This document shows, piece by piece, positions 13,018 through 51,713 of a stretch of DNA of 64,000 nucleotides (the stretch's first letter is position 1; each line of letters begins with the position of its first letter). The notes beneath the pieces were generated by a model. The model searched no databases. It saw only the letters and a program-made list of their open reading frames with translations, and had not been told where the DNA came from. The stretch lies in assembly GCF_900107775.1 (NCBI RefSeq), contig NZ_FNRF01000001.1, positions 1-64,000 on the forward strand, read 5' to 3'. The position numbers and the translations under genes were made by a program. The DNA is from Xylanibacter ruminicola. GTDB lineage: Bacteria; Bacteroidota; Bacteroidia; Bacteroidales; Bacteroidaceae.

Positions 13018-13026
13018 ACCAAGCAA

Positions 13027-18709: not shown

Positions 18710-18740
18710 TTGCACGATTCAATAATTATGCTTATCTTTG
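18710..18740 (+). promoter_or_regulatory. Promoter of the locus-1 regulator
   Basis: TTG (18710-18712), 20 bases, TATCTTTG (18733-18740). Only 9 bases separate the box from the first ATG at 18750, so the transcript has almost no leader unless a later ATG (18759 or 18762) is used. Confidence 0.65.
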
Positions 18741-18749
18741 CCGAAAAAT

Positions 18750-34310: not shown

Positions 34311-36014
34311 TTACCAATTGGGGGTCTGATTCAGACGACTGTTTTTCTGAATCTCAGACTGCGGGATGGGATAGAGATTGTATTTCTCGTCCCACTGGCG
34401 ACTCTTAGTAATCCTATTAAGAATCAAGTGACCATTGTTGTCCAACTTGAATGAGGCCACGTCCACATTCTTAAAGAAAGCTGCACCTTTCTTCCAGCGG
34501 CGCACATCCCAAAAGCGCTGACCTTCGAAAGCAAGTTCCACCATGCGTTCACGCATATAACGCTCTTCGAAACCTTTGTTGCCATGAAATTCCGGCATCA
34601 TAATATCAGGACGGTTGCGGAGCACATTAACAGCCTCATTAGCCGACAAGCCGAATTCTCCCTTTTCATCGGCATTACCATAGTAGTTGTACATCGCCTC
34701 TGCATAGTTAAGATAAACTTCGGCCAGACGCATCACAATCCAATTGTGGCGTGTGGAAGTCTGGTTATTAGCGGTGGTGATACAGTTACCATCAACAAAC
34801 TTCTTCAAATAGTAGCCAGTAGGGGTAGCACCATATTTGGGCGCACCATTGAAACCATTCTGATAAGTCTCTATAGCGATTTGCTGAGCCGTATTGGCTG
34901 GCCATAGGTCGCCATTCTTTACAATTGTCAGTGCAAAACGCGGGTCAAGACCATCGTATGGTGTCTCGGTAGTCACATCAACATCACCTGGATGTTTCTC
35001 TTTGAACGTCCTGCCATCGGTCTGATATTCGTAAGCATCGACCAATGCCTGTGTGGGACAATTGCCCGAGTTTCCGTTCTCCACGCCGACAGGATAATTG
35101 TTGCACTCGAAGGTATTGCTGGCCTGAGTACCAAGGACAAAGATAAATTCGGGGTTCGTAAAAGTATCATGCCCCCAAAGGTTGGCATAGCTACTGAGTT
35201 TGTAGCCCCAACGTTGTGCATTATCAATAATCACCTTGCTGGCAGCAGCAGCCTCTTTCCACAGTTCTTTATTACTATTTGGATTAAACAGAGGCGAGGC
35301 CTGATAAAGCAATACGCGGGCCTTCAGAGCAAGTGCTGCGCCACGTGTTGCACGACCTATCTCCTGTCCTGGAATATCTTTGTACGAAACAGGCAGATAT
35401 TCTGCCACAGCATCTAACTCATCAATAATAAACTTAAACACCTCGCTGGCTGGTGTGCGTTCCACGCTGTTGGCTTGTTCATTGGTCAGACTTGTAGTCA
35501 CCAAGGGGACATCCCCATAGGCTCGTACCAGCTCAAAATAAAAATAGGCACGAAGGAAACGCAACTCGTAAGGAAACAGTTCGAATTGCTGCACCATATT
35601 CTGATAGTCGGGGGCATACTCATAATCCGACAGATCAATCTGATGGATGCGCTCAAGATACATATGTATCTGCGTGATGGCACGATAGGACCTATCCCAT
35701 GTATCACGGAAGGGGTTAGATGGGTTCCATCCACCATTGTAATAGTTGTGAATGGCAGAGTATGAAAGCGAGAACTCAGCCTCATCCGTAGCACTGGCTG
35801 TCATTGCCCCCATACCATAGAAGTCATCCTTAAACTCACTTGGCATTTGTGCATAGACATCATAGACCAGAGCCTTAACGCCATTAAGAGGACTATTATA
35901 AGTCCACGCCTCATCACGACTTGAAGCCTCGTTGTAATCCAAGTCTGCACAACCGGCAAAAAACATTGTTGCCAAAGCCCAAAAAGACAATTTTATCTTA
36001 TTCATAATCATCAT
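34311..36014 (-). CDS. SusD-like lipoprotein, second pair of locus 2
   Basis: The 567-residue RagB/SusD protein has its lipobox at MFFAGCADL; translation may start at 36014 or at the internal ATG three codons later. Family stretches include LRFLRAYFYFELVRAYGDVPLVT, MRLAEVYLNYAEAMYN, RMVELAFEGQRFWDVRRWKKG and the terminal YPIPQSEIQKNSRLNQTPNW. It binds glycans at the outer surface with the SusC encoded one base upstream. Confidence 0.93.
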   Translation of the reverse strand: MMIMNKIKLSFWALATMFFAGCADLDYNEASSRDEAWTYNSPLNGVKALVYDVYAQMPSEFKDDFYGMGAMTASATDEAEFSLSYSAIHNYYNGGWNPSNPFRDTWDRSYRAITQIHMYLERIHQIDLSDYEYAPDYQNMVQQFELFPYELRFLRAYFYFELVRAYGDVPLVTTSLTNEQANSVERTPASEVFKFIIDELDAVAEYLPVSYKDIPGQEIGRATRGAALALKARVLLYQASPLFNPNSNKELWKEAAAASKVIIDNAQRWGYKLSSYANLWGHDTFTNPEFIFVLGTQASNTFECNNYPVGVENGNSGNCPTQALVDAYEYQTDGRTFKEKHPGDVDVTTETPYDGLDPRFALTIVKNGDLWPANTAQQIAIETYQNGFNGAPKYGATPTGYYLKKFVDGNCITTANNQTSTRHNWIVMRLAEVYLNYAEAMYNYYGNADEKGEFGLSANEAVNVLRNRPDIMMPEFHGNKGFEERYMRERMVELAFEGQRFWDVRRWKKGAAFFKNVDVASFKLDNNGHLILNRITKSRQWDEKYNLYPIPQSEIQKNSRLNQTPNW

Positions 36015-36015
36015 A

Positions 36016-38793
36016 TTAGAAAGTTAATGTAACACCAATGTTGACACCTTTGAACATAGGATAAGCGGTAGAAAGCACCTCAGCATCCATGGCATCGACA
36101 TTATCGAAAGAAAGGAGGTTCTCGCCCTGCACAAACACCTTGGCACCTGTCAGTGAGAGTTTTGAGAGCACCTTGGCAGGAACTTTATAGTAAACCTCCA
36201 CATTGCGCATTTTCAAGAAATGAACAGGCTTTATCCACACATCGCTTGCTTGATTGTTATTACTGCTATTCAGGGTTGTCAAACGTGGGTAGAGCGCTTT
36301 GTCGCCAACCACATCCCAGCAGTTATTGAAGTAGTCAACAGACAGATTACCGTTATTGGCCATACCACCCCATATGGCAGAAGGGAGTGTCTTCATATAA
36401 TTACCCGTACCTTGGAACCAAGCATTCAGACCAAGTCCTTTATACTCTACCCCCACATTGAATGCATAGTTAAGTTCCGGGATGCCAGTAGGACCATCCA
36501 GACTGGTTTCATCGAAGGCATTGATAACCTGGTCGCCATTCAGGTCTTGGTATTTAATATCACCAGGTGTTACTACAGAATATTCCTGACGGTGGCTGGT
36601 GTTAACATCATCCTGGTTCATAAAGAAACCTGCCGACTTGAGTCCCCAAGCCTCGTTCACACGATGCCCCACAGGATCGAGCAAAGGATAAGTAGGTGTG
36701 CCGATATATCTGGTTACCTCATTGCGTGCCCATGATAAGTTGGCTCCAATATGAAGATGGAGGTCGCGCACAATCTGCTTGGCATATTTGGCCGCAACCT
36801 CAAAACCATAGCTCTTAACCTTTCCCACATCATTATATGACGACTGTATGCCTACTACCGAAGAGTTTTCATTGCTTGCAGAGAGCATGATATGACTGCG
36901 AAGCTGATAGAAAGCATCAAACGAGAGGTCGAGGGCATTTGCCAGACGCAGATCGGTGCCCAAATTGAAGTTTGTTGATGTCTCCTGTGAGAAATCGGTG
37001 GTAGGAAAAGAGCCAAGCGAGGCGCCCCATGTCGCGCTATAGTCATTACCAATAATCACATATCCATGCGAAGCATCCCAAGTGGGGAGCCACATGCCAT
37101 AGGTAGGCATATAGTCGGTATGCTGTATGCCTGCCGAGGCGCGCAACTTGCCATAACTGAGCAGATGTTCATGGTCATTGGCATAGATCCAACCGAGCGA
37201 TAAGGTGGGTGAGAATGCCCATTTTGTAGGATAGGTGCGATTGGAGCCATTACCAGCAAGTACAAGGTCGGCTATATAGCGATTCAGAAAGTCGTAGTGG
37301 AAGACACCCATGATATTCCGACGATAGATGGTGTTTCCCCGTCCGTCGGCACTGGAACCGCTATTGGTATAGATGGCTGTGGCACTGAAATGGTCATCGC
37401 CAAAGAACGACTGCTTATAGTGGAGTCCTATGCTGGATTTGGCTTTCCACCACTGACCGGCATTCCAATTACTGAAGGTAAGGTTAGTCTCCTTATTGCC
37501 GAATGTGGTCAGGGCAACATGACTGATATCACCGATAGCACCAGTGTAGCGTTCGTAACCATATTCATGCGCCTTGTGCATGTTCTCTGCATAGATCGAA
37601 GAGTTGGCATAGCCAGCACTGACAAACAGGTTCAAACCTTTGAGTAGGAAATCCAGACTCTGAGTCAGCTTAGCATCTACCCACAGTTGGCGCTGGTGAG
37701 TCTTATAGAAGCCTGACTCCTGAATTTTAGCAATGGGGTTAGCATCGCCAAAGGTCTCGTTACCACCCCACACACCTGTTGTTGTCATCAGGGGAAAGGC
37801 ACTTGCCGGCAGACTATAGATAGCATAGACAGCATCGTCAGCCCCTAAATCAGAAGGGCGTTTGGTTTCCTGGAACATTCCAAAGAGGTTCACCGACATG
37901 AGCGTTGTCTTAGAGAGATTGAAGTCGAGATTAGTACGGATGTTTGCCTTCGATTGTCGCAGCTGCGCATTATAGTCGGTCAGTTTAGTATCCCTCAAAG
38001 CCCCTCGCGCATCGGTATAATCAATATGTGTATAGTATTTCACCTTAGCCGTTCCTCCATAGACAGAAAGATACGCATGATCTTCCTCTGCTTTGTTTTT
38101 GAAAGTCAGATTACGCCAGTTGATGTTGGGATAGAAGTATGGATCAGAACCATCCTTGAAGAGGTTCAGTTCCTGTTCAGTATATGCTGGTGCAAGTCCG
38201 TCGTTGATGCGTGCACGATTGAGTGCAGTAACATACTGGTAGCCATTCACCATATCCGCAAATTCCGGACTGAACAAGAACTTATGTCCATAGCCAGCCT
38301 TCACATGCGTTTTACCTTCAGCACCGCGTTTCGTCTTCACAAGTATGGCGCCATTGATTCCCTCGTGACCAAGAAGAGCAGTTGCCGCAGCATCTTTGAG
38401 CACAGTAACACTCTCTACCTCCTCTACGGTCAGGCGGTTGATAGGTCGCTCATAACCATCCACGAGTATCAGGATACTTTTGTCATTGAGTGTATGATAG
38501 CCTCGGATATTAAATGAAGCCCCCTTATCTTCGTCACCAGAGAAGCCACCTGTAGAAAGAGCCGTGAGACCAGGAAATCGCCCATAGAGCGCCTGAGCAA
38601 GGTTGGCTGCTGAAGTTTGCTGCAATTCTTCGCCTGTGACTGTGGTTGCGGAAGCCGTGCTAAAAAAATCGCTGATTTCCACACCATATCCCAAATCATA
38701 GGCATTTGCATTCTTATCGTTGAGTCTCACCTGTGCATTTGCCGTCAGAGAGAAAGCCACCGCTGCAACGATCAACATTCTATTTGTTTTCAT
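36016..38793 (-). CDS. SusC-like TonB-dependent transporter without N-terminal carboxypeptidase-regulatory domain
   Basis: The 925-residue outer-membrane transporter is about 120 residues shorter than the other two SusC proteins here. After a signal peptide (FSLTANAQ) it goes almost directly to the plug (SATTVTGEELQQTSAANLAQALYG, FNIRGYHTLNDKSILILVDGYE), lacking the CarboxypepD_reg-like domain and a clear TonB box. The barrel and C-terminal strand (KGVNIGVTLTF) are complete, so the gene does not look broken. It is the second SusC of a SusC-SusD-SusC-SusD operon and may import a distinct oligosaccharide. Confidence 0.9.
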   Translation of the reverse strand: MKTNRMLIVAAVAFSLTANAQVRLNDKNANAYDLGYGVEISDFFSTASATTVTGEELQQTSAANLAQALYGRFPGLTALSTGGFSGDEDKGASFNIRGYHTLNDKSILILVDGYERPINRLTVEEVESVTVLKDAAATALLGHEGINGAILVKTKRGAEGKTHVKAGYGHKFLFSPEFADMVNGYQYVTALNRARINDGLAPAYTEQELNLFKDGSDPYFYPNINWRNLTFKNKAEEDHAYLSVYGGTAKVKYYTHIDYTDARGALRDTKLTDYNAQLRQSKANIRTNLDFNLSKTTLMSVNLFGMFQETKRPSDLGADDAVYAIYSLPASAFPLMTTTGVWGGNETFGDANPIAKIQESGFYKTHQRQLWVDAKLTQSLDFLLKGLNLFVSAGYANSSIYAENMHKAHEYGYERYTGAIGDISHVALTTFGNKETNLTFSNWNAGQWWKAKSSIGLHYKQSFFGDDHFSATAIYTNSGSSADGRGNTIYRRNIMGVFHYDFLNRYIADLVLAGNGSNRTYPTKWAFSPTLSLGWIYANDHEHLLSYGKLRASAGIQHTDYMPTYGMWLPTWDASHGYVIIGNDYSATWGASLGSFPTTDFSQETSTNFNLGTDLRLANALDLSFDAFYQLRSHIMLSASNENSSVVGIQSSYNDVGKVKSYGFEVAAKYAKQIVRDLHLHIGANLSWARNEVTRYIGTPTYPLLDPVGHRVNEAWGLKSAGFFMNQDDVNTSHRQEYSVVTPGDIKYQDLNGDQVINAFDETSLDGPTGIPELNYAFNVGVEYKGLGLNAWFQGTGNYMKTLPSAIWGGMANNGNLSVDYFNNCWDVVGDKALYPRLTTLNSSNNNQASDVWIKPVHFLKMRNVEVYYKVPAKVLSKLSLTGAKVFVQGENLLSFDNVDAMDAEVLSTAYPMFKGVNIGVTLTF

Positions 38794-38827: not shown

Positions 38828-40783
38828 TTACCAACCGGGGTTCTGGTTCAGACCATAGCCCTTATTGATTTCATCTCGTGAGATAGGTGAAAGATACCAT
38901 TTATCGTTCCACTTGCTGGTCTGGCTATTGGTATCCCACCATACACGGATATTATTGGTACAAGGCACCTTTTCATAGATACAGTCAGGCCATGGTTCGC
39001 CAGGCTGAAGGCTCGTATCGCCATGATAGTCAGCAGGTTCCATCTTCTTACCATTGGCATCCTTACGCCATACACGTAATTGGTGCACCTGCTTCTTAAA
39101 GATATCTGATCTCTTGTAACGTATCAGGTCATACCAACGAGAGTCTTCATATCCAAATTCGCAAGCACGCTCTTTGAAAAGTTGCTCGATAAAGTTATCT
39201 TTGTTGGATGTGAGGTTGAGTTTTGGATTCATCACCTCTACCTTACCTAATCCTACACGTGCACGTACCTTATTCATTTCGTCGCAGGCTTTCTGCAAGT
39301 TACCTGTCTGTGCCAATGCCTCAGCATAGCAAAGGTGAATATCAGCCATACGCAGATAAGCATAATTGGTGGGATAGTAAGCAGCATAACCGTTGTCACG
39401 GAGATATTTAAATAGTTTCAGTCGTGTTGACCAAGGGTTATCGGTGACTTGGGGATTGAAGTTCTGATCGACATTACCACCCTGCCAGATTTCTGTGCTC
39501 GACAGTCCGTTATACTGTTCAACCAGATTATTGCGATTCACCACCATCGTCTCATAGAGACGTGGATCGCGATTGGCAAAAATATCCACATTATCGGAGT
39601 TATCAGTATTGAACACATCGTCGTAAGGGAAGTTACGTCCATCAGCCATACCAAACATCTCCATGTACTCTAGGGTGAAGAGGGCCATACCAAACTCATC
39701 CATACCTTCTACGTTCCAGTCACCATTCCAGGCATTGTTACCAGGACCAGCATGCACTTCAATCACCTTCTCGCTGTTGCCACGGAACCAGTAGGCTGCA
39801 CGGAAAGCATTACAATAGTCTTGTTCAGTATTACCTTCAGGCTGAACAAGAGCGAAATAATTGCCATTCGCACTATTGGCCTGGAAGAAATCCTCGCAAG
39901 CCTTGAGCGCCTTCTGCCACAAATCCGCCTGATAGCCACCTGTCCATATCTGGTGAAGGTCCTGATTCTCTTCATGACGCGTAAACTGCAGATAAGGCTG
40001 GTCGCTATTGAACAAAGGAGAAGCCACGAAATTCCAGAGTTTCACACGCAGACCATAAGCCGAGCCCTTAGTCAGTCGACCAGAATTCGAAGCCTGGTCC
40101 TGAACATAGAAGGGCAGTCCTGGTTCATCGATGGCCGCCTGAAGGAGCTGGTCGATAAATTCGGCAGTTTCGATAACGCTCATACGTTTGCCATCTACGA
40201 TATCAGCAGCTTGGTAAGAACGATCTACTTTGGGAAGACCACCGAAATTACGGAAGGCATCGAAATAGCGCGAGGCCATGATAACATAGACCTCACCACG
40301 CAACTGACTCTTCTCTGATTCGCTCAAGTCGGGAACACGATCGATATTCTCCATAAAGATCCACCCTTCACGAATCGTACGCCAGATGCCAGCACGACTA
40401 TTACCATCACCATTAGCAATAAAAGGGAATTTAACAAAACCGCCATTATCCTGATCTGTTTCAGTTAGGTCGCCACCATAGTATTTTCCCAAATTATGCC
40501 ATCCACAGTATGACTGACAGATATCAGTAAGCGCATCGGGATGCGAGTACCATACTGCACCAGTATAGGTGAAGGGGTTATGCATGGCACCATACATGTG
40601 CCAGAGAAAGCGTTTGGCACTCTCTCCTTTGACAAAAATGGTGTCCATGGTCACATCGACGCCCGGCTGCTTATCGAGAAAGCCATTTCCAATATTTATA
40701 TCATCTACACACGAAGCCAGTGAGCTCGCAGCAACACAGAGCATGGCAGCGGTCTTCATTTTGAGTTTTTGGATATAATTCAT
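38828..40783 (-). CDS. SusD-like lipoprotein, first pair of locus 2
   Basis: The 651-residue SusD-family protein has its lipobox at SLASCVDD (Cys24). It shows NMENIDRVPDLSESEKSQL-type helices, YLRMADIHLCYAEALAQTGN, KERACEFGYEDSRWYDLIRYKR, and a terminal LSPISRDEINKGYGLNQNPGW. It is larger than its neighbours (557 and 567 residues), suggesting extra loops around the binding face. It is located 11 bases after the large SusC. Confidence 0.93.
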   Translation of the reverse strand: MNYIQKLKMKTAAMLCVAASSLASCVDDINIGNGFLDKQPGVDVTMDTIFVKGESAKRFLWHMYGAMHNPFTYTGAVWYSHPDALTDICQSYCGWHNLGKYYGGDLTETDQDNGGFVKFPFIANGDGNSRAGIWRTIREGWIFMENIDRVPDLSESEKSQLRGEVYVIMASRYFDAFRNFGGLPKVDRSYQAADIVDGKRMSVIETAEFIDQLLQAAIDEPGLPFYVQDQASNSGRLTKGSAYGLRVKLWNFVASPLFNSDQPYLQFTRHEENQDLHQIWTGGYQADLWQKALKACEDFFQANSANGNYFALVQPEGNTEQDYCNAFRAAYWFRGNSEKVIEVHAGPGNNAWNGDWNVEGMDEFGMALFTLEYMEMFGMADGRNFPYDDVFNTDNSDNVDIFANRDPRLYETMVVNRNNLVEQYNGLSSTEIWQGGNVDQNFNPQVTDNPWSTRLKLFKYLRDNGYAAYYPTNYAYLRMADIHLCYAEALAQTGNLQKACDEMNKVRARVGLGKVEVMNPKLNLTSNKDNFIEQLFKERACEFGYEDSRWYDLIRYKRSDIFKKQVHQLRVWRKDANGKKMEPADYHGDTSLQPGEPWPDCIYEKVPCTNNIRVWWDTNSQTSKWNDKWYLSPISRDEINKGYGLNQNPGW

Positions 40784-40794
40784 TGTCTTGATTG

Positions 40795-43700
40795 TTAGAA
40801 GTTAAAGTTAATTCCGAAGTTATAGACGCGAGTCATGGGGTAACGCGTGCTACCATAACCGGCTTGCGCCTCTGGGTCATTAGCCTTGAAACTTGTGAAA
40901 GTAAGAAGGTTGTAGCCATTGGCATAAACACGGATATTATTGATGGGTATTCCTGGTATGCGGAACGAATAGCCAATTTCCATGTTCTTCAGACGGATAT
41001 ATGATGCATCAACCATCCATGGAGACGAAAGGGCGCCATTATGCTCACGTGCCGATTTCTCAAGAGAGATGCGAGGCAGTATAGCATTCAGATTGTCTGC
41101 CGTCCACGAGTTATCATACACCCACTTGTTCAGCATCGACTGGTTGCCAGTACCAAAAGCTGGTGTATAGAATGAGCTCAGCTGACGGTTGACGTGGGTA
41201 GCCCCCACCCAGGTCATGGAAAAATCGAAACCTTTCCAGTTGAGTGTTGCGTTAATGCTACCAGTATATTCTGGAATGTCGCTATAGCCGATGGCATGCA
41301 CATCATTGGCATCCACTTTTCCATCACCAGTATAATCGACAAACACACTATCACCAGGACGCAGCGTTATCTGTTGGTCAGGCATGTCAACACCATAAAC
41401 ATCCTTGTAATGCTGTTCGGTTTGACCAGGCACATAGAATTCAAAGAATTCATAGCCGAAAGGCTGTCCTACAGGATGTCCTGTATGATACATATGGGGG
41501 AACTCCTTCTTCACTTCGGCCATCTCAACAATCTCATTACGAGCAAAAGCAAAAGTTGGCGCTATAGAATAGCTCACCTCACCAATCTTATCAGCCCAGC
41601 GCAACGTAATCTCATAACCATGGTTCTTCACACGACCGAAATTAATCGAGTTGGGTTTCAAAGCAGAGATACTGGCAATGGTGGTCTCATTAGAAACGAG
41701 GATGTTCTTACGATCTTCCCAAAAGAGGTCTAAACCAAAACTCAAACGGTCGTCGAAGAAATGAATGTCGAAACCATAGTTCTGTTTGGTGGCAGTCTCC
41801 CAAGTCACATCGGGATTACCATTGGTAGATTCGCGTGCACCCGGCATGAATGAGCCATTATTGACACCGAAGTTACCTGTACGGTCGTTGGTCCACCAGG
41901 CACCACCATTATTATTGTAGAATTGCCAAGTACCAGGCAGATAGAGGAAACGTCCTATTCCCTGGTCATTACCAACCTTACCGACTGAGCCACGAATCTT
42001 AAAATAAGAAATGACTTTGCGGATAGGTTCCCAGAACTTTTCAGACGAGGCTATCCAACCAAGAGAAGCTGATGGGAAGAAGCCGAAACGCTTACCTCGG
42101 GCAAAGTTCTCTGAGCCATTGTAACCCATATTAAAGTCAACCATATACTTTGTCTGATAGTCGTAAGTCAAACGTCCCACCATACCTACGTAGCCACGAG
42201 GGATAGAATTATACTGACCGCCAGGATAGTAGTTTTTGGATTCATTATAAAGGACGAGGGCTCCAAAATTATGGTCACCAAACTTACGAGCATAGTTCAG
42301 GCTCGCCTCAGCATACCAGTTTCTACCACCCCATTTCGATTCGCTGTAGCCAAGCGGCCACGAGTCACCTTGACGGACATACGCAATCTTTGGCGAGCCA
42401 TCATCATCATATTCGCCTTTGACGATAGTAGCCTTATAGTTGATACCACCACCCGTGGTACGAGCCTTTTGCTGCGTATAATCAGAGTTATAGGAGCCCT
42501 TGATACGGAAATCAAGACCCTTGGTAATAAAATCGAGTTTGAGCTTATACTGCAGGTCGAGATTCACTACACTCTGACGCTGTGTGGTATAACCATGCTC
42601 GTAGATGAGTCCTAGACCATCTGAGCCTACAGCACCCACCAGATCGGGATCGGAGACAATACGTCGCCCTCTGTTGTCAAGACCATAGCCCGACATAGGT
42701 GTACCGTTATTAAGCAGTCCCTCTACGCCAAAGACTCCCGACTGGCCGTTATACTCGCCATTACCGATAGAGTTACGACGCCCAATACGTCCACCGATGC
42801 CAATAGAGAGCGTGCTCCGTTGGGATAAATCAACATCCAGATTAGCACGGAAATTATAACGACGGTATTTGAAGTTGGCATCATCACTCTGCCCGAAAGT
42901 CTTGAACAGTCCATTTTGGTTGAGCATTCCTGCAGAAACAAAATATCTGGCACGTTCTGTGCCACCCGACACATTAATATTATATTGGTCTTGCCAGGCA
43001 TGATCATTCATCAGGTATTTGAACCAGTTGGTGCTTGGATAGACCGTAGGCATATCCATATCCTTCCAGTGTTGGATAGCTTCCTTCGAGAATTTCCATC
43101 CATCTTCGGCCACCCCTTCCACCTCTTGGGCATGGTTATAGGCAGTAGCATATTCATAAGAGCTGGCAGGTTCGAGAAATCGGGATATCTGTTGCAGTCC
43201 GAATGAGGTTGTCAGTGAGATGGTTGGTTTCCCCACGGCACCACGACGGGTAGTTACAAGGATAACACCATTAGCACCACGCACACCAAAAACAGCCGTT
43301 GCAGAAGCATCTTTGAGGATTGAAATATCCTGCACCTCGTTCGGGTCAATCTGACTGAACTCACGCTCTACCCCATCTACCAACACGAGCGGTTCGGCAC
43401 TATTGAAAGAGCCTATACCACGGATGCGGATGACAGGATCATCGCCACCAGGAACACCAGTGTACTGCACCGACTGCAGGCCAGGCAACTTACCAGTAAG
43501 GGCATTACCCAGAGAGGCAGCAGGTGACTTCAGGAGTTCCTTTCCACTCACGTTTGACACGGAGCCTGTCAGTGTGACCTTACTCTGCTGACCATAGCCA
43601 ATTACCACTAATTCGTTGAGCATCTCATTACTTGCCACAAGAACCACATTCATTGGTCTCGTTGTCGCTTTCATTTCCACAGATTTGCAACCAACGTAAG

Positions 43701-43926
43701 AGAAGACCAAGGTCGTACCCTTGGGAACTCTCGACAAAAGATAATTGCCTCCGACATCGGTGACTGTGCCCTTCGACTTGTCTTTGATTTGCACAGTGGC
43801 ACCAATAATCGGTTCGTTCTGCTCGTCAGTAACACAACCTCGCACATCAATCAAGCCTTGTGCAAGGCACACTCCTTGTAGCAACAAGGCCAACAAGAGG
43901 AGACTCATTTTGCATAACTTTCCCAT
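40795..43926 (-). CDS. SusC-like TonB-dependent transporter, first pair of locus 2
   Basis: The 1043-residue outer-membrane transporter has a signal peptide ending in GVCLAQ, a CarboxypepD_reg-like domain (IDVRGCVTDEQNEPIIGATVQIKD), a TonB-box region (NELVVIGYGQQSKVTLTGSV), a plug (VIRIRGIGSFNSAEPLVLVDGVE) and a full barrel ending RVYNFGINFNF. It leads the SusC-SusD-SusC-SusD-TIG-GH18 operon, whose promoter carries the same operator-like element as the second locus-2 operon. Confidence 0.95.
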   Translation of the reverse strand: MGKLCKMSLLLLALLLQGVCLAQGLIDVRGCVTDEQNEPIIGATVQIKDKSKGTVTDVGGNYLLSRVPKGTTLVFSYVGCKSVEMKATTRPMNVVLVASNEMLNELVVIGYGQQSKVTLTGSVSNVSGKELLKSPAASLGNALTGKLPGLQSVQYTGVPGGDDPVIRIRGIGSFNSAEPLVLVDGVEREFSQIDPNEVQDISILKDASATAVFGVRGANGVILVTTRRGAVGKPTISLTTSFGLQQISRFLEPASSYEYATAYNHAQEVEGVAEDGWKFSKEAIQHWKDMDMPTVYPSTNWFKYLMNDHAWQDQYNINVSGGTERARYFVSAGMLNQNGLFKTFGQSDDANFKYRRYNFRANLDVDLSQRSTLSIGIGGRIGRRNSIGNGEYNGQSGVFGVEGLLNNGTPMSGYGLDNRGRRIVSDPDLVGAVGSDGLGLIYEHGYTTQRQSVVNLDLQYKLKLDFITKGLDFRIKGSYNSDYTQQKARTTGGGINYKATIVKGEYDDDGSPKIAYVRQGDSWPLGYSESKWGGRNWYAEASLNYARKFGDHNFGALVLYNESKNYYPGGQYNSIPRGYVGMVGRLTYDYQTKYMVDFNMGYNGSENFARGKRFGFFPSASLGWIASSEKFWEPIRKVISYFKIRGSVGKVGNDQGIGRFLYLPGTWQFYNNNGGAWWTNDRTGNFGVNNGSFMPGARESTNGNPDVTWETATKQNYGFDIHFFDDRLSFGLDLFWEDRKNILVSNETTIASISALKPNSINFGRVKNHGYEITLRWADKIGEVSYSIAPTFAFARNEIVEMAEVKKEFPHMYHTGHPVGQPFGYEFFEFYVPGQTEQHYKDVYGVDMPDQQITLRPGDSVFVDYTGDGKVDANDVHAIGYSDIPEYTGSINATLNWKGFDFSMTWVGATHVNRQLSSFYTPAFGTGNQSMLNKWVYDNSWTADNLNAILPRISLEKSAREHNGALSSPWMVDASYIRLKNMEIGYSFRIPGIPINNIRVYANGYNLLTFTSFKANDPEAQAGYGSTRYPMTRVYNFGINFNF

Positions 43927-43989: not shown

Positions 43990-43997
43990 CAAAATTA
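43990..43997 (-). promoter_or_regulatory. -7 box of the locus-2 SusC operon
   Basis: Minus-strand TAATTTTG (43997 to 43990), the same box as at the locus-1 SusC promoter. No -33 element is present at 19-20 bases, consistent with an activator-dependent promoter. The SusC ATG lies 63 bases downstream. Confidence 0.6.
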
Positions 43998-44019
43998 GGC
44001 CTTATACACAAAAAAGAGG

Positions 44020-44081
44020 TTAACAAAATGACAAATAGTGTAGAAAAACTATCATGCTACACATATTTGTCATTTTATTAA
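44020..44081. promoter_or_regulatory. Long inverted repeat containing the locus-2 operator-like element
   Basis: Arms 44020-44043 and 44057-44081 are complementary except for one mismatch and one bulged base, around a 13-base loop. The promoter-proximal part (44029-44055: TGACAAAT, GTAG, then CTATCAT) matches 22 of 27 bases at 51687-51713. In both, the element begins exactly 32 bases upstream of the first base of the -7 box. The hairpin also lies after the MFS gene and could stop its transcription, but there is no adjacent T-run. Confidence 0.65.
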
Positions 44082-44106
44082 CCTTCACTATCAGAAAGTA
44101 AGCCCC

Positions 44107-45387
44107 TTAAAGAGCTGATTGCCGGACTTTAGAACCTATGAGTGCATAGAAAAGCATGACCAACTCGCCGAAAAGAACGATGGACCACGACCAACGCCAA
44201 TGGCCCATCCAGTCAGCCAGTAGGCCTTGGAGAAGTGGCAACAGGGCACCGCCAACCACTCCAATCATGAATACACCAGAAGCTACAGAAGTATATTTTC
44301 CGAGTTTTGATACAGCCAAAGTAAAAATGGCTCCCCACATGATGCTGTGACATAGACCTACCGCCACCAATATCCATGGGTTATTAGTCAGCATAGCCAT
44401 TATAACCAATAAACAGGCCATCGTTGTGGTAAATATCAATTGGACACGAGGATGGATGGTGCTGAGTGTGCTTCCCAACAATCTTCCTACCAACAGGCCA
44501 CCCCAATAGAGTGTTGCCATCAACGTGCATACAGAAATGTCTAATCCAAGATCCTCGCTGACATAGAGGTTGATGTTTGTACCAATACACACCTCACATC
44601 CCACATAGAAAAAGATAGCCACCACGCCATACGCCAGATGACTGAAAGACCACACGCTTCTCTCCAGCTTCTCACCCATTTCGTGATGTGTCCCCTTTAT
44701 ATCTGGAAGAGAGAGGCGAAGCAGAATAAAAATGATGATGAATACAACAGCCGCCAATACCAGGAAAGGCACCATCAACTGTTGGATTTTCACTTCTTCC
44801 AACGCAAGACCACCAAACACAATGCCCGACACAAAATAGGGGGCTATCGTAGTACCTACCGAATTTGCTGTACCACCAATAGCCAGGCGTTGCACTGCCT
44901 GAGTGCTTTTAACGTTACAGGCTGTAAGGTAAGGATTGATCACCACTTGCAGAATAGTAGCCGAAGCTCCGACAACAAAGGATCCTAACAGGAAAATAAA
45001 GAATCCGCCAGGAATGCTATGATCATTCAACTGTAATGCAGCATCAGGCAGATGCATTGTAAACCATGAGGAGAGGAAAAACAATAGCAATCCAATGGTC
45101 ATCACCATGAGCCCACGTATGAGTGTGCCCTTGTAGCCATAACACTCAATCCACTTTGATCCCAATCGGCCACAAACGGGATAAGCCAGAAACCAAGAGA
45201 AGGTTACCAGTGTGGTTAGAGTGTTTTTAAGGCTACCTGCATCTGAAAGGAAAGCCGCCTTGAGAGGCCCTTGGAACTGTCCGTTGGCTGTAGTTAGGAA
45301 TCCTACAATCAAAAAAAGAAAGACCATTGTGAGGAATGGTCCAAAATAGTTTGTCTGCGGTTGCAATTTTGAATTCATATCAATCAT
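44107..45387 (-). CDS. MFS sugar transporter (FHS/NagP-like)
   Basis: The 426-residue protein has about twelve membrane spans and resembles the FucP/NagP branch of the major facilitator superfamily (NYFGPFLTMVFLFLIVGFLTTANGQFQGPLK). In Bacteroidetes these carry sugars or amino sugars from periplasm to cytoplasm by proton symport. Location after a ROK kinase and an amino-sugar-phosphate deaminase suggests uptake of GlcNAc, GalNAc or a related monosaccharide. It is the last gene of its unit; start may be 45387 or 45378. Confidence 0.87.
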   Translation of the reverse strand: MIDMNSKLQPQTNYFGPFLTMVFLFLIVGFLTTANGQFQGPLKAAFLSDAGSLKNTLTTLVTFSWFLAYPVCGRLGSKWIECYGYKGTLIRGLMVMTIGLLLFFLSSWFTMHLPDAALQLNDHSIPGGFFIFLLGSFVVGASATILQVVINPYLTACNVKSTQAVQRLAIGGTANSVGTTIAPYFVSGIVFGGLALEEVKIQQLMVPFLVLAAVVFIIIFILLRLSLPDIKGTHHEMGEKLERSVWSFSHLAYGVVAIFFYVGCEVCIGTNINLYVSEDLGLDISVCTLMATLYWGGLLVGRLLGSTLSTIHPRVQLIFTTTMACLLVIMAMLTNNPWILVAVGLCHSIMWGAIFTLAVSKLGKYTSVASGVFMIGVVGGALLPLLQGLLADWMGHWRWSWSIVLFGELVMLFYALIGSKVRQSAL

Positions 45388-45391
45388 CTTC

Positions 45392-46126
45392 TTAACGTTT
45401 CACAAATTTAGCAGCAGCAGCATCCAACAAAAACTCGCATTGAGGATGAAGTTGAAGTACTGAGGCTGGCACTGCTCTTGATACAGGACCATATAACATT
45501 CTGCGCACCATATCGGCCTTATGCGCCCCCTTAGCCACCAAAACGATTTTCCTGGCATGCATGATATCCTTGATACCCAGTGTGACACCACCCAAAGAGA
45601 GACTTAGAGGAGTCTGTGTTTCCTGGCGAATGCGCACCTCCAGCTCGTCATTCATCCTCGTCGTCCAAGCCACACTCTCAAATGGTGTACCTGGTTGATT
45701 GAATCCCAGATGTCCATTCTCCCCTAATCCAAGCATCAGGAGATCGATTCCCCCACGCGCTTCTATACTATCAACAAATGTTTTACAGTCTTTTTCCCAG
45801 TCAGAACTCATGGTGGGCAGCATCAGAAAATGGGCATTATCGATGCCCAAGTCGTCTATCAACTCCGTCTTCAACATCGTATAACAAGCACCAGCATAAG
45901 TTCGGGGCACATTCATCACCTCGTCCAATCCGAAAAACGTAACGTGACTGACATCAAAAGGCGTTCTGTGATGTTGTTCCACAATTTTGCGGTGCATATT
46001 CTTAGTCGTCCTGCCTGTTGACAAACCGATAACGCTATCTGGTTTTAATAGTATCTGCCTGATGACACGTTGTGAGGCAGTCAGATCGAAGACCGACTCA
46101 TTCTCTACGATAGTAATACTCATCAT
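45392..46126 (-). CDS. NagB/AgaI-family amino-sugar-6-phosphate deaminase
   Basis: The 244-residue cytoplasmic enzyme has the NagB fold: LSTGRTT (phosphate loop, about 35-41), FFGLDEV with Asp68, GLGENGHLGFNQP (133-145), and VPASVLQLHP. NagB-type enzymes turn amino-sugar 6-phosphate into a keto-sugar phosphate plus ammonia. Compared with E. coli NagB (ND-G-H...NEP), the Asp141 position is Asn137 and the Glu148 position is Gln144, while His139 is kept. The Asn is shared with galactosamine-6-phosphate deaminases (AgaI), so GalN-6-P or another amino sugar is possible. Confidence 0.82.
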   Translation of the reverse strand: MMSITIVENESVFDLTASQRVIRQILLKPDSVIGLSTGRTTKNMHRKIVEQHHRTPFDVSHVTFFGLDEVMNVPRTYAGACYTMLKTELIDDLGIDNAHFLMLPTMSSDWEKDCKTFVDSIEARGGIDLLMLGLGENGHLGFNQPGTPFESVAWTTRMNDELEVRIRQETQTPLSLSLGGVTLGIKDIMHARKIVLVAKGAHKADMVRRMLYGPVSRAVPASVLQLHPQCEFLLDAAAAKFVKR

Positions 46127-46135
46127 ACCTATGGA

Positions 46136-47080
46136 TTATTTAGAATTCATGGATATAGCCGCAGCACCTAAGAGACCTGCAAATTGCGGGTCAAGTTTGG
46201 TAAGTACAACACCATTAGATACGAATCGCATGGTAACAGGATGCAGATAGTGCTCAATATGTTCAAGCATGAAGCCATCTGCAACTACGCCACCTCCTAA
46301 AACCACCGTGTCGGGATCGGTCATTCGCACCAAGTTCATAATCAGATTGGCTAAGGCCTCAGCAGCATTGTCAACCAGCACTCTGCATAAGGGGTCATTC
46401 TGTCCATAGAGGGCAAAGATATCTCTCACGTCAACGCGTTCACCATTCACTGTAGGAATCTGCAATGCAGTAGGATATTGTTTCTGGAGTAAACGGGCAC
46501 AACGGTCGAAGCCCATACCGGAAGCAATAGCCTCCACACAGTCAACTCGACCACATGGACATTTCACGCCCACCTGAACTCCCACTCTCACATGCCCCAC
46601 TTCGCCAGCATTAAAATGACTACCACGAACTTGTTGCCCATTGATAACGAGACCAGCAGCGATGCCCGTACCAACGTTGACATATAAGAAGTTACGTGAC
46701 ACCCTACCATGCCCCCACATCATCTCTGCACGCGTGGCACTCTTCACATCGTTGTCAATAAAGCAAGGCATACCGTACGTTTCAGACAGTTGCTGTGCCA
46801 GAGGCATTGGGTAGGTTCGCTCGGGATCAATCTGCTGCCAGATACCCTGCTCATAGTCAACACGTCCTATCAATCCAACCCCCATTGCTACGGGCGGCTG
46901 CTTGTACCAACCCACCTGATGGATATAATCATCCAAAGAATGACGGATAATATCAAAAGCCACCTGCTGATTGAAATAGCCAGAGTCATAACGCTTGTGA
47001 TTGTAAATGTTCCCTTGGCCATCAACCTCGCCTATCAGGAGTTTAGTGCCGCCTAAATCTAAACCTAAATAAGTTTCCAT
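46136..47080 (-). CDS. ROK-family sugar kinase
   Basis: The 314-residue protein has the ATP-binding LGLDLGGTKLLIGEVD at the N-terminus, the sugar-binding DNDVKSATRAEMMWGHG with catalytic Asp (about 109), GTGIAAGLVINGQ, GEVGHVRV, and the ROK zinc site CPCGRVDCVEA. ROK kinases phosphorylate glucose, GlcNAc, ManNAc or similar at O6. It has no N-terminal helix-turn-helix and so is an enzyme, not a repressor. Between NagB/AgaI and the regulator, it likely makes the deaminase substrate after deacetylation or a hexosamine phosphate. Confidence 0.88.
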   Translation of the reverse strand: METYLGLDLGGTKLLIGEVDGQGNIYNHKRYDSGYFNQQVAFDIIRHSLDDYIHQVGWYKQPPVAMGVGLIGRVDYEQGIWQQIDPERTYPMPLAQQLSETYGMPCFIDNDVKSATRAEMMWGHGRVSRNFLYVNVGTGIAAGLVINGQQVRGSHFNAGEVGHVRVGVQVGVKCPCGRVDCVEAIASGMGFDRCARLLQKQYPTALQIPTVNGERVDVRDIFALYGQNDPLCRVLVDNAAEALANLIMNLVRMTDPDTVVLGGGVVADGFMLEHIEHYLHPVTMRFVSNGVVLTKLDPQFAGLLGAAAISMNSK

Positions 47081-47099
47081 ATTTGTTTTATTTTATTGT

Positions 47100-47960
47100 T
47101 TATTTCATCATCTTACTTGGAGAAAAGCCAAATTGTTTCTTAAAACAGGTGCTGAAGTACTTGGGATCATTATATCCCACTTTTACTGCTACTTCTGCTA
47201 TCGTCCATAGTTTCGCTTCCAATAACCTTTTCGATTCATTCAGTCTGAATATTCGCAAATAGTCATTTGGACAGTGCCCTGTTGTGGCTTTGATTTTGGT
47301 AAACATAGCCGTACGGCTCATCCCCATTTCCTGGCAGATATCATTAATCTGCAACTCGCTGTTGGACAATTGCGCCCTGATAACCTTATCAAGTCTTTGC
47401 AGAAATTCCAAATCACTCGTTTCCTTGACAGCGCCAGACTTGCTCAGATCCGGAAGTCCTTTTGTTGGTTCTTCGAGTACAATTCCTATTCTGGCTTTCA
47501 GTATCGACATGTCGCAGGGTTTGGTGATAAAGTCTTTTGCACCAGCCTCCAAACCATAAACGATATCGGTACTATAGGATAGCGACGAGAGGAATACGAC
47601 TGGTAGCATACAGGTTTCTGCATCTTCTCTGATGGCATGACAGAGTTCATCGCCACCCATATCCTGCATCAGGTATTCGGATATGACAAGGTCGGCTTTG
47701 ATATCCTCAATCATATGGATAGCCTGCTGTCCACTCTTCACGAACACCAAGTCATAGTCAGACTGCAAACCTGCTTTCAGATTCGTCTCTGTATCCTCAT
47801 CCATACCCACCACTAGAATTTTTTTCTTGATATGGGTAACTACTGTTTCTGGACGCGACGCCTTACAGTCAACTTCATCCATCTGCCGTCTCCTATGAAG
47901 GAGCCAGACGACAACTGCCAACAGCAGTATATTGAAAAAAATACTTATCCAAGTAATCAT
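47100..47960 (-). CDS. Membrane-anchored receiver/AraC regulator with Glu at the phosphoacceptor position
   Basis: The 286-residue protein has one N-terminal membrane helix (about 4-21, ISIFFNILLLAVVVWLL), then a receiver domain (about 46-165) and an AraC-type helix-turn-helix domain (about 185-286, ending FKKQFGFSPSKMMK). Layout equals the C-terminal half of hybrid two-component regulators, but no sensor or kinase is encoded nearby. In the receiver, DLVISEYLMQDMGGDE places Glu95 where the phosphorylated Asp normally is; acidic-pocket residues (Asp54, Glu55, Asp56) and Lys147 are kept. Glu can mimic phosphorylation, so it may be permanently active or tuned by another cue. The start overlaps the GH9 stop (ATGA). 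Confidence 0.87.
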   Translation of the reverse strand: MITWISIFFNILLLAVVVWLLHRRRQMDEVDCKASRPETVVTHIKKKILVVGMDEDTETNLKAGLQSDYDLVFVKSGQQAIHMIEDIKADLVISEYLMQDMGGDELCHAIREDAETCMLPVVFLSSLSYSTDIVYGLEAGAKDFITKPCDMSILKARIGIVLEEPTKGLPDLSKSGAVKETSDLEFLQRLDKVIRAQLSNSELQINDICQEMGMSRTAMFTKIKATTGHCPNDYLRIFRLNESKRLLEAKLWTIAEVAVKVGYNDPKYFSTCFKKQFGFSPSKMMK

Positions 47961-50812
47961 AGCTTCATCAGTTCAGCTAACAGAGATAACCACTTGCCTG
48001 CCGAAGTAAGCCACACCTCTTTATAACAGGCATTATTCGTCATCGGGAAATAGGGCATATCCTTATCCACGATAGCACGAATGCCTACGGGCATCTCACC
48101 TACGATTTCTCCTGACGAGAAACTGTCTTGAGAGGGATAGCGATGACCTTCGCCATACATGAGCGACTGGCAGAATGGATTCTTGCCAAGTGTCCAATAG
48201 AGTTGCTCTATAGCAATATCACTCAGTTCCTGATCATCCAGGAATCTGCCACAAAGTGCAGCAGCCTTACCCGAAGCAAGTATCAATGCCTCGTTGCCAT
48301 CAAAGATATCTGTCCACAGAGGGAAGCGACGCACACTCTGATCCTGATAGATACCACTAGGAATCATCCCATAAGGCAGAGTTACCTTCATGATTTTTTT
48401 GAGATACTGACCGTATAATGTTAAGGCATACTGCCAATGGTGGAAATCCTGATGTTGACGCTGACTCTCACAAAGAGCGACAAGCGCCTGGATAGGCAGT
48501 TGTTCTCTCGACTGGTGCATAAAATGCACTATAGACTGGTGCGTACTGTCACGATAGAAGTAGCCAGCCATCTCACCTGACTGCTCTTGACACATCAATG
48601 TATAGTGAATGTATTGCGCGGCCTTGTCAGCATAAATTTTTTCACCTGTCAGCTGGTAGAGCATGGATGCCGACCACGAGGCAGCAGCCATCCATATGCT
48701 CTCAGGCATGCCATAAGTATGCTCCATTTTAATTTTAAAGGTGTCGAGACCATGAACCAAGAACTGACTATCTGCAAAGCCAAAGTCCTCAATGGCCACC
48801 TGTTTCAACTGCTCATCGTTTAGCTGCAAGGATGCATAAGCCTCATAAGCAGCATAAAGATAGTTGTCGAAGGCATGATGCTGTTTACGTACAGTATGGA
48901 TATCATCCTCTGTACCAGCGATACCATCAGTCCAGTGAAGCAGTCCTATACTACTGGCTCGCCATCCATCACCCATGCGGGTGTTCATAAGTTGCCGAAG
49001 CCCGTGCTGGGCCTCGTCGAGTAAACGTTCGGCCAATTGTGGATGGAGTTGTTTGCACACCTGGTATGCTTCAAGCAATGCAAATGTCACATCACCAGTC
49101 TGAAGTGTTTGCTGCGACAAGTCGCCTGCATCATGCCAGCCACCGCCGTAGCTGAATGGCTGTCCATTGTGATCACAGAACACATCCGTGTGGCATCTGG
49201 CATGGATACCATCAACGACATCGCCACAACGCTGACAACGGATAAAATTCAGCGTTTTCCACATGGTACCGTCCAATGCATGCCGACTGATAGGAAATGG
49301 TGCCGAATGTAAATCGTCTAATACCAGACTATAGATACCCTCTCGCTGAAAATCGGAGAAATCGATGACAGCCAACTGACTGTTGAGAGTAGATGGCACC
49401 ACTTGCGTTGTTCCCTGAAACACTACCCGATGTGTCTGTTCATCGATGAGTTTGAAATTTCCGCCCTGACCAGCCACCAATGCTGTCTTAGGCCCCATTG
49501 TAAAATAGCCAGACATTGAATAAGCCATCTTTCCTGGTGCCACCTGCCAACCTGCAGTCTGCTCTGGCTGTGCCACACGTTCCAGTTGCATGTTACGGAT
49601 TTCGTAATGAATAGAGTCCTGTTTAGAGAGATTTCTGCCCTTGATGTCCGTATAAAGTCGTATGTCGGTGACCTCTTTACGAGGCATCTCTTCTATCTGA
49701 TAGATTACATGCTGCCAAACCTTTTTCTCCACATTCACCAAATGAGCTCCCCCCCCACTGTAAGGATGGCTATCTACAGCCACATTTACATTAGCGATAC
49801 CAGCATCCAAATCTGTACGGATATCAAAGGAGATACGATTCCAGTCCTCCAGGTTATGGTTATTCAGAGGAATGGTGATACTCGATGTACCATAAATGGC
49901 ATAATCTGGATCATCTTTCGGACCTATGGCTCGCTTTCCAGTGCTGACAGGCAGTGCCAACACCCATTTTCCATTGATCATTTTTGAGGCAACGATGGGC
50001 TGAGCCTTCATTTCGCTTTCTAGTGATGCTTCTGCATAGCACTTCATGGGACGGTTCAGCACCCAGAGAAGTGCGTTGGTAAACATTCTGACGAAATCAG
50101 GATTATCAAAAAGTGAGGCACTATGCCCTATTTGGAAATATACATTACGAGCAGGTTTACTGAGGTTAGTCCAGATAACAGGGTGATCGCCCATCTTCAC
50201 ACCAGAAGCTGGATGATAGGTATTTTCATCCACACTTGCCAGCACATGCACATGTCGCCGAGGCGTCTGATCATAAGTGTACCATTCGTCTTCCTTTATC
50301 AGAAACTTTGGATTGACACCCGACATCACAGGATGCCCTGGATCTTCCACTATCACTTGTCCATCGGCCTTCTCTGCAATGTAATTCTGGAATCGGATGC
50401 TTCCAAGAAAGTCACTGAACCACAGCCACATAGGATAGCCGTCGAACTCACCTAACAGCGATGCATGATGGAAACCAATCCATGCTACAGTCCCCTTATC
50501 AATAGCCTGTTCGAACTCTTTCATGGCCACCTGACTCCATACATAGGGCGGATAATTCAGTTGCACCACCAGATCGTATTGAGCGATGTCACCAGCTTGC
50601 AATTTGTTACAGTCATCAAGTTCTGTGATGCTGAAATTCATTTCTTCTGCCTGCTGGTGCAGCCAGCGCAGTCCCGTTTGGGTAAAAGCATCATGCTGCC
50701 CTCCCAATTCGGCCAGCACCAGCACGCGCTTTTGTGCAGCCATCAGGTCTATCATATGGCACAGTAGCACAAGTACTATCCATGCCCATCGTCTCACCAA
50801 TATCGTTTTCAT
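47957..50812 (-). CDS. ThuA-like domain fused to glycoside hydrolase family 9
   Basis: The start was set at the ATG at 50812 (MKTILVRRWAW, signal peptide ending LMAAQ), one base after the ThuA gene stop, giving 951 residues. Residues ~25-265 are a ThuA/glutamine-amidotransferase-like domain (WIGFHHASLLGEFDG, NVYFQIGHSASLFDNPDFVRMFTNALLW). A beta-rich linker follows, then a CelD_N immunoglobulin-like domain (~425-505) and a GH9 (alpha/alpha)6 barrel (~510-945). The GH9 catalytic base region is GGGWHDAGD near 560, and a Glu in CYKEVWL lies near the C-terminus. GH9 includes cellulases and exo-glucosaminidases. With amino-sugar genes beside it, exo-glucosaminidase-like activity is a reasonable but unproven guess. 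Confidence 0.87.
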   Translation of the reverse strand: MKTILVRRWAWIVLVLLCHMIDLMAAQKRVLVLAELGGQHDAFTQTGLRWLHQQAEEMNFSITELDDCNKLQAGDIAQYDLVVQLNYPPYVWSQVAMKEFEQAIDKGTVAWIGFHHASLLGEFDGYPMWLWFSDFLGSIRFQNYIAEKADGQVIVEDPGHPVMSGVNPKFLIKEDEWYTYDQTPRRHVHVLASVDENTYHPASGVKMGDHPVIWTNLSKPARNVYFQIGHSASLFDNPDFVRMFTNALLWVLNRPMKCYAEASLESEMKAQPIVASKMINGKWVLALPVSTGKRAIGPKDDPDYAIYGTSSITIPLNNHNLEDWNRISFDIRTDLDAGIANVNVAVDSHPYSGGGAHLVNVEKKVWQHVIYQIEEMPRKEVTDIRLYTDIKGRNLSKQDSIHYEIRNMQLERVAQPEQTAGWQVAPGKMAYSMSGYFTMGPKTALVAGQGGNFKLIDEQTHRVVFQGTTQVVPSTLNSQLAVIDFSDFQREGIYSLVLDDLHSAPFPISRHALDGTMWKTLNFIRCQRCGDVVDGIHARCHTDVFCDHNGQPFSYGGGWHDAGDLSQQTLQTGDVTFALLEAYQVCKQLHPQLAERLLDEAQHGLRQLMNTRMGDGWRASSIGLLHWTDGIAGTEDDIHTVRKQHHAFDNYLYAAYEAYASLQLNDEQLKQVAIEDFGFADSQFLVHGLDTFKIKMEHTYGMPESIWMAAASWSASMLYQLTGEKIYADKAAQYIHYTLMCQEQSGEMAGYFYRDSTHQSIVHFMHQSREQLPIQALVALCESQRQHQDFHHWQYALTLYGQYLKKIMKVTLPYGMIPSGIYQDQSVRRFPLWTDIFDGNEALILASGKAAALCGRFLDDQELSDIAIEQLYWTLGKNPFCQSLMYGEGHRYPSQDSFSSGEIVGEMPVGIRAIVDKDMPYFPMTNNACYKEVWLTSAGKWLSLLAELMKL

Positions 50813-50813
50813 A

Positions 50814-51620
50814 CTATTTCTCAAAAGGATTGCCTTTAGGGTCACAGCTTACCACCCACCTGAACGCATTCGTATAAAGCATATTCTGCGTGGCCTCCAT
50901 GAAACTCTCGTCACCATGTCCCATATTCAGATAAATCATTCGATATCTTTTGTTTGTCCACACAATAGGAAAATCGCCTGACTTCACCACATCCTTAATA
51001 CCAAAAGGATACATCTTAGATGATATCGACACCAGAATTTCTACATCTTTATCCTGACGAGGCGATGTGGTCCATTGATAATATTCTGAGGCAGGCGCCA
51101 CATACTGTTCAGGTAGCGTGCGTGTAACAGGATGCTCAGATGTTTCCACTCTGACCAAAGCAGACTGTGGTGGCCATTGATTACAGAGGAATGAGCCACA
51201 ACCCAAGAACTCGGTCATCCAGGGCCATTCGGCCTCGTTAGCCCTAAACGCAGAGGCGTGGAACCCCATCCATCCACCTCCATTCTCCATATAGGTCTGA
51301 AAAGCTTCACGTGTCTTCTTGTCAGCTATTCCATAGTTACACATAATGATGATACTATAGTTTTGCAGACTATCACGATAATCACCCAGATTGGTGGTCA
51401 CATCCAACAGATAGCCTTCTCCATACGTCAGTTTATGAAAAAACTGAATAGCCTGTTTATCAAACTGCACATGAGCCTCTTCGGCTGTAGGTTCATAACA
51501 CAATAGTGCCTTGAATCGAGGCCCTTTGGCATAGTTAGCCGGATAGTCTTCAGTCTGAGCATTCAAGTTCAAACCATTAACGAATAGCAATGCTGTTAAA
51601 ATTAGTTTTAGAATCTTCAT
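50814..51620 (-). CDS. Secreted ThuA-domain protein
   Basis: The 268-residue protein has a signal peptide (MKILKLILTALLFVNGLNLNAQ) and a single ThuA domain: LLCYEPTAEEAHVQFDKQAI, the GGGWMGFHASAFRANEAEWPWMTEFLGC block, YEYYQWT-like region and IVWTNKRYRMIYLNMGHGDESF. It is related to the N-terminal domain of the GH9 fusion that follows it, so two ThuA modules are made together. ThuA domains are widespread in sugar loci but their activity is poorly defined (roles with trehalose or as oxidoreductase or hydrolase partners have been proposed). It leads the second locus-2 operon. Confidence 0.88.
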   Translation of the reverse strand: MKILKLILTALLFVNGLNLNAQTEDYPANYAKGPRFKALLCYEPTAEEAHVQFDKQAIQFFHKLTYGEGYLLDVTTNLGDYRDSLQNYSIIIMCNYGIADKKTREAFQTYMENGGGWMGFHASAFRANEAEWPWMTEFLGCGSFLCNQWPPQSALVRVETSEHPVTRTLPEQYVAPASEYYQWTTSPRQDKDVEILVSISSKMYPFGIKDVVKSGDFPIVWTNKRYRMIYLNMGHGDESFMEATQNMLYTNAFRWVVSCDPKGNPFEK

Positions 51621-51647
51621 TTTTTATCTTGTTTATTAGTCGCGCTG

Positions 51648-51655
51648 CAAAAGTA
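51648..51655 (-). promoter_or_regulatory. -7 box of the ThuA-GH9 operon
   Basis: Minus-strand TACTTTTG (51655 to 51648). As at the locus-2 SusC promoter, no -33 element is found at 19-20 bases. The leader to the ATG at 51620 is about 22 bases. Confidence 0.55.
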
Positions 51656-51686
51656 TCACATTCCCGTGACATAGAAGTTTAATAAT

Positions 51687-51713
51687 TGACAAATCGAGTA
51701 GAGAATCTGTCAT
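51687..51713. promoter_or_regulatory. Operator-like element upstream of ThuA-GH9 operon
   Basis: TGACAAAT (51687-51694), GAGTAGA, then CTGTCAT (51707-51713) match the element at 44029-44055 in 22 of 27 positions. It starts 32 bases from the -7 box, the same distance as there. It also contains an imperfect inverted repeat, TGACAAAT against ATCTGTCA. It is probably bound by the regulator encoded at 47100-47960. Confidence 0.6.

Follow-up and report, generated by a model that had tools for sequence, protein, structure and literature searches.

Paired predicted operators upstream of two operons in Xylanibacter ruminicola, assigned to a kinase-less regulator of HTCS lineage

Two similar elements upstream of two minus-strand operons of a putative chitin/GlcNAc-type locus appear to serve as operators for a single regulator of HTCS descent, encoded at 47100-47960 within operon 2, which lacks a kinase, presumably controls itself and probably works without phosphorylation. 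Judged from sequence, the probability of this reading was put at about 0.7. The mechanism that we infer is that the regulator would bind P1, the promoter of operon 1, and P2, the promoter of operon 2, at two direct half-sites on the same face of the DNA, would occupy the place of the -33 contact and would recruit polymerase (class II activation), thereby also driving its own operon. It would not need phosphorylation: it may be fixed in an active-like state, or some other input may tune it. The coordinates of the features in the window (the whole stretch of 64,000 nucleotides that was analysed) are given in Table 1.

Table 1. Predicted regulatory sites and genes of the two operons, in window coordinates
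Feature	Position	Strand	Remark
P1 operator upstream of SusC1	44018..44054	-	21-bp period; ortholog matrix rank 1-3 of 127,850
P1 half-site 1, TGATA-GTTTTT-CTACA	44054-44039	-	5-bp spacer before half-site 2
P1 half-site 2, TGTCA-TTTTGT-TAACC	44033-44018	-	
P1 inverted third half-site, TGTCA-TTTTAT-TAACC	44068-44083	+	zero-mismatch core
P1 -7 box, TAATTTTG	43990..43997	-	sequence inspection
P2 operator upstream of ThuA1	51676..51712	-	21-bp period; ortholog matrix rank 2
P2 half-site 1, TGACA-GATTCT-CTACT	51712-51697	-	5-bp spacer before half-site 2
P2 half-site 2, TGTCA-ATTATT-AAACT	51691-51676	-	
P2 -7 box, TACTTTTG	51648..51655	-	sequence inspection
SusC1, first gene of operon 1	40795..43926	-	
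SusD1, operon 1	38828-40783	-	
SusC2, operon 1	36016-38793	-	
SusD2, operon 1	34311-36014	-	
TIG-domain protein, operon 1	32921-34276	-	
GH18, operon 1	31755-32906	-	
ThuA1, first gene of operon 2	50814..51620	-	
ThuA fused to CelD_N/GH9, operon 2	47957..50845	-	true start probably ATG at 50812
Short AraC-type regulator, operon 2	47100..47960	-	Pfam receiver + AraC HTH
ROK-family sugar kinase, operon 2	46136..47080	-	
NagB-like glucosamine-6-phosphate deaminase, operon 2	45392..46126	-	
MFS sugar transporter (GluP/NagP-like), last gene of operon 2	44107..45387	-	

The element upstream of operon 1 (TGACAAATAGTGTAGAAAAACTATCAT, plus strand, 44029-44055) and that upstream of operon 2 (TGACAAATCGAGTAGAGAATCTGTCAT, plus strand, 51687-51713) were identical at 22 of 27 positions, and each 27-mer lies 32 bases upstream of its own TAnnTTTG box, counted from start to first base (TAATTTTG, 43997, and TACTTTTG, 51655, respectively). 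The primary-sigma consensus of Bacteroides is composed of TAnnTTTG (-7) and TTTG (-33) (PMC7366714); by inspection, TTTG was absent ~19-21 bp upstream of the -7 box in both P1 and P2. An earlier note on this DNA had reported the identity with its coordinates and the spacing to both boxes, which were exact when the letters were read again, and the missing -33 element, which was likewise found to be so. Its statement that the flanking DNA is not similar fails for ~11 bp on the promoter side, over which the likeness runs on (TGTCA-N6-TAACC in P1, TGTCA-N6-AAACT in P2), the best conserved part being the core TGTCA-N6-WAACY. The 27-mer that it described is a real element but was cut too short, the natural unit being a 37-bp direct repeat.

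Both regions are AT-rich and short repeats in two copies are frequently due to chance, but a chance likeness between the two promoters is hardly credible here. When the two 110-bp upstream regions were shuffled by dinucleotides, 22 of 27 identities at equal offset arose in 0 of 200,000 shuffles (and at any offset in 1 of 4,000), and conservation of the site in orthologs, described below, already refutes chance. The 27-bp pattern with 0 mismatches was present in the 3.77-Mb genome as the P1 and P2 copies only, and a genome-wide search at 0 mismatches for the core joined to its box, TGTCA-N6-WAACY-N20-TAnnTTTG, gave exactly two matches, again P1 and P2.

On the coding (minus) strand the operator reads as a pair of half-sites of 16 bp each, TGWCA-N6-(A)AAC(C), recurring with a 21-bp period; the earlier 27-mer takes in half-site 1 with the spacer that follows it, together with the TGTCA that opens half-site 2. 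A period scan had its maximum at 21 bp in each of the two clades. The HTCS motifs described in the literature are direct repeats of 21 bp on average, and one type is formed by two sites of 16 bp separated by a 5-bp spacer (PMC3878776); the predicted operators at P1 and P2 match this geometry. A simple palindrome (TGACA...TGTCA) was considered as the main unit of the 27-mer and set aside, as period analysis and the orthologs favour a direct repeat with a 21-bp period; the real inverted copy of P1 sits farther out. Half-site 1 in the window has lost most of its AAACC part (CTACA in P1, CTACT in P2), and within the window clade this part has diverged (CTACA, CTACT, CCACC, AGATG, AGACG) with TGTCA-N6-WAACY kept. 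The promoter-proximal half-site ends ~20 bp upstream of the -7 box in both P1 and P2, where a -33 element would lie, and this fits the suggestion that the bound protein replaces the -33 contact. The predicted site is positioned as that of a class II activator of the AraC family would be, with its core ending ~20 bp before the -7 box of a promoter that has no -33 element.

The earlier note had named absence of the element from orthologous promoters as a refutation; the element was present at the same spacing in close orthologs and in more distant ones that have a full-length HTCS, L174 P2 being an exception in which no convincing site was found. Seven orthologous promoters upstream of ROK read approximately TGWCA-N6-AAACC-N5-TGTYA-N6-AAACC, followed after 20 bp by the -7 box. 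In all seven and in the window, 31 bp separate the end of the second TGTCA from the -7 box; this gap recurs ahead of the L153 regulator gene, at L173 P2 and, where the boxes have the form CAnTTTTG, at L173 P1 and L174 P1. Among the close orthologs, the site stands at equal spacing before both operons in L173 and before one operon in L174. More distant orthologous chitin/GlcNAc-type loci with a full-length HTCS also carry the site at the same spacing, and in L154, L155, L159 and L160 it stands before the HTCS gene itself; at SusC1 of L160 the spacing is off by one base.

A matrix was constructed from the seven ortholog promoters (from loci with the full-length HTCS or a near relative) and contained no window sequence. 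It is small, being derived from seven related promoters that were chosen once the repeat had been seen. With all columns in use it placed P1 at the top of the 127,850 window positions and P2 next; when the columns of the -7 box were left out, P1 came third and P2 stayed second. In other loci its top-ranked positions were L173 P2, L174 P1 and, for L153, the promoter that precedes the regulator, and its two best matches in L177 lay upstream of SusC and of NagB; it gave no convincing site in L161, L162, L165, L175, L152 or L158. A relaxed TGWYA repeat pattern matched only inside annotated reading frames in L037, because the half-sites of this locus read TAAACC. The near-identical loci L035 (Prevotella sp. 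MA2016) and L036 (Xylanibacter ruminicola SIG140) were uninformative for footprinting because they are 97-99% identical.

P1 carries a third, inverted half-site, located 33 nt from half-site 2 and forming an arm of an inverted repeat of 20+ bp (44018-44083), which lies just after the MFS stop codon and overlaps the operator. The whole window contains three exact cores: the P1 operator, the P2 operator and this inverted half-site, whose core spans 44067-44083. Inverted cores at the same 33-nt offset were detected at L173 P1, L174 P1 and L173 P2, and none was detected at that offset from window P2. The P1 element could be read as the terminator hairpin of the upstream operon, with an incidental likeness to P2. 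Its place after a stop codon within a long inverted repeat agrees with this, as does the RNA, whose fold is much more stable than that of shuffled sequences in each of three species (z of -5.8 in the window, -10.3 and -10.3 in the others) and whose arms differ between the species yet remain complementary, having changed together. However, P2 in the window does not follow a same-strand gene, and even so it has the letters and the -7 spacing of P1; at L173 P2 the inverted copy keeps the 33-nt offset but lacks a U-run; and the arms at P1 hold complete operator cores. A mere terminator is thus very improbable, with an added hairpin role at P1 being possible. The U-run of the P1 hairpin is weak or within the stem. 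The repeat may represent a symmetric operator, the terminator of operon 2, or both, and a template-switch mutation between its arms is a possibility.

The regulator encoded at 47100-47960 is a protein of 286 aa with an N-terminal hydrophobic helix, a receiver and an AraC HTH. Pfam identified the receiver (Response_reg, 2e-15) and the AraC HTH only; neither a Reg_prop/Y_Y_Y sensor nor a histidine kinase was found in the 286-aa chain. The helix (hydropathy maximum of 2.44 at residues 2-20) is predicted to span the membrane, which would place a membrane helix and a DNA-binding domain in one chain, the topology being a prediction from hydropathy. In the receiver, VISEYLMQD and VGMDED stand where ISD and DD are expected; Glu replaces the phospho-Asp in the window, L173 and L174, and the acidic pair is changed too, making this an aspartate-less receiver fold. 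Glu is the commonest replacement in such receivers and can, but does not always, confer phosphate-independent activity (PMC4395418). The S/CHIP contact between receiver and DNA-binding domain holds the HTH inactive in HTCSs, and substitutions in it relieved this inhibition in the HTCSs tested (PMC11253607); the corresponding residues are CMLP (window), CTIP (L173) and STIP (L174). Because of the Glu at the phosphorylation site and the altered contact motif, phosphorylation-independent action of the regulator is likely.

A full-length HTCS of ~1300 aa precedes ROK-NagB-MFS in L037 (Muribaculaceae) and in L154, L155, L156, L159 and L160, which are genomes of the family to which the window belongs. 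Short regulators without sensor or kinase were found with the helix in the window, L173, L174, L176 and L177, and without the helix in L152, L153, L158 and L164. All short forms nested inside the locus HTCS clade of the tree, on which the label changes three times, two of these changes being forced by well-supported branches. Phylogenetically, the regulator at 47100-47960 descends from the full-length HTCS of the locus, with sensor and kinase lost. The phospho-Asp position is Gly in L152 and L176, and the Asp is kept in L153, L158, L164 and L177, although in L177 the receiver pocket is altered and the conserved Lys is missing. With regard to a split HTCS with a separate kinase, no kinase was present among the inspected neighbours of the short regulators in the window, L152 and L153. 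A literature search for truncated or orphan HTCSs returned no papers.

The proposal that the AraC-type regulator of operon 2 controls both operons is supported by its being the only regulator in the locus and by its descent from the locus HTCS of the relatives. The description as AraC-type holds for the DNA-binding domain; the protein as a whole appears to be no ordinary AraC protein but a truncated HTCS, whose receiver is degenerate and which has a membrane helix. Self-control, which had also been proposed, agrees with the relatives, whose HTCS genes carry the site before themselves, and is probably ancestral because the genes so preceded in L154, L155, L159 and L160 are of full length. Similar sites with the same -7 spacing also lie beside other HTCS genes (L010, L019 and L032) and beside L127 elsewhere in the window's own genome. 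As this geometry recurs beside other HTCS genes, the motif alone cannot single out the regulator at 47100-47960, and the assignment of the sites to it is based on co-location and co-inheritance and not on a unique motif.

A different HTCS or HTCS-like regulator of this genome might instead bind P1 and P2 in trans, the truncated protein being a modulator, for example a competitor, or in decay. The genome encodes approximately eleven further proteins that have both a receiver and an AraC part, and also several that have only the AraC part; one of these, L127, adjoins the similar site mentioned above, and the receiver of the locus regulator is degenerate. We regard this as unlikely. The truncated gene and its Glu have been kept in three species-level lineages (window, L173 and L174) at ~68% identity, so the gene is not decaying; its AraC domain shares no more than 41% identity with any other in the genome, the site co-occurs in the locus with the regulator gene and with its full-length orthologs, and the zero-mismatch core with its box is otherwise absent from the genome. 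A role as repressor or dual regulator, in which the protein would be bound constitutively and keep polymerase out until freed by some other input, is also unlikely. Repression of the locus is known for some HTCSs whose motif differs from S/CHIP-DK (BT2391, PMC11253607), and the inverted third half-site at P1 and L173 P2 could aid looping or blocking; the site, however, lies upstream of the -33 region and not over the -7 box or the start, and the want of a -33 element at both promoters is as expected if they depend on an activator. Activation of both operons by the locus regulator is the reading that we prefer.

The presence of GH18, a ROK kinase and NagB suggests that the locus is used for chitin, chitooligosaccharide or N-glycan GlcNAc. 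The ROK protein was considered as a NagC-type repressor and rejected, as the ROK domain fills the protein and there is no HTH. The partner of ThuA is swapped within the same locus, being GH9 in the window (47957-50845) and a GH18 chitinase in several of L037 and L152-L160. SusC1 and SusD1 of L160 (373-5483), from a different genus, are 89% and 87% identical to those of the window, far above the rest of the locus, and a recent transfer is possible. Elsewhere in the window, a 914-aa protein (18738-21482, plus strand) combines Reg_prop/Y_Y_Y sensor repeats with a terminal LuxR-type HTH and no kinase, and adjoins a locus with GH2 and alginate-lyase genes; a 1543-aa protein (8395-13026, minus strand) is a fusion of alginate lyase, GH88-like and GH2 domains. 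In L127 (G000:C10:709113-712433) a sensor-propeller is fused straight to an AraC domain, and the protein has neither kinase nor receiver; it is followed by the site of the same geometry and -7 spacing.

Glycan use in gut Bacteroidota is switched mainly by HTCSs, which are regarded as sensor-kinase proteins. A conserved relic in which the operator and apparent autoregulation persist although sensing and phosphotransfer were dropped constitutes a natural experiment on an HTCS without its kinase, and it predicts two target operons and one defined candidate operator. The fixed spacing from half-site to -7 box across genera offers a practical rule for predicting HTCS-controlled promoters. What is new, from comparison of the sequences, is that kinase loss recurs in a chitin/GlcNAc-type locus and that a third half-site, inverted and always equally far away, occurs at several promoters of the clade. 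A broader scheme, to which we would give slightly less than even odds, is that HTCSs of this locus shed sensor and kinase more than once, yielding short, often membrane-tethered, phosphorylation-independent activators on the ancestral operator, and that in Prevotella/Xylanibacter this operator was partly rebuilt from a direct repeat towards outward-facing inverted half-sites at a fixed 33-nt offset.

The predicted operators resemble those of the AraC-type HTCSs of Bacteroides (PMC3878776; PMC11253607) in their 16-bp half-sites, 5-bp spacer and 21-bp period, and differ in the diverged half-site 1 of the window and the extra inverted half-site at P1. The regulator shares with HTCSs a homologous receiver and AraC-type HTH, a place within a SusC/SusD locus and presumed self-control; unlike them it has no periplasmic sensor or histidine kinase, and it has Glu for the phospho-Asp and CMLP for CHIP. 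A receiver without phospho-Asp joined to a DNA-binding domain is also found in the ALR regulators ChxR and RitR (PMC4395418), from which the regulator is distinguished by its AraC-type output, membrane helix and HTCS descent. As a DNA-binding protein predicted to be membrane-tethered it is comparable to the transmembrane transcription regulators (ToxR-like or 'hybrid TTRs'), a survey of which counted receiver-containing members (PMC10269533). It differs from TTRs in having almost no periplasmic part and an eroded receiver pocket. RhaS and RhaR, AraC-family activators of Proteobacteria, act beside the upstream element of the promoter and use inverted half-sites; the regulator of the window is unlike them in sensing domain, phylum and promoter type.
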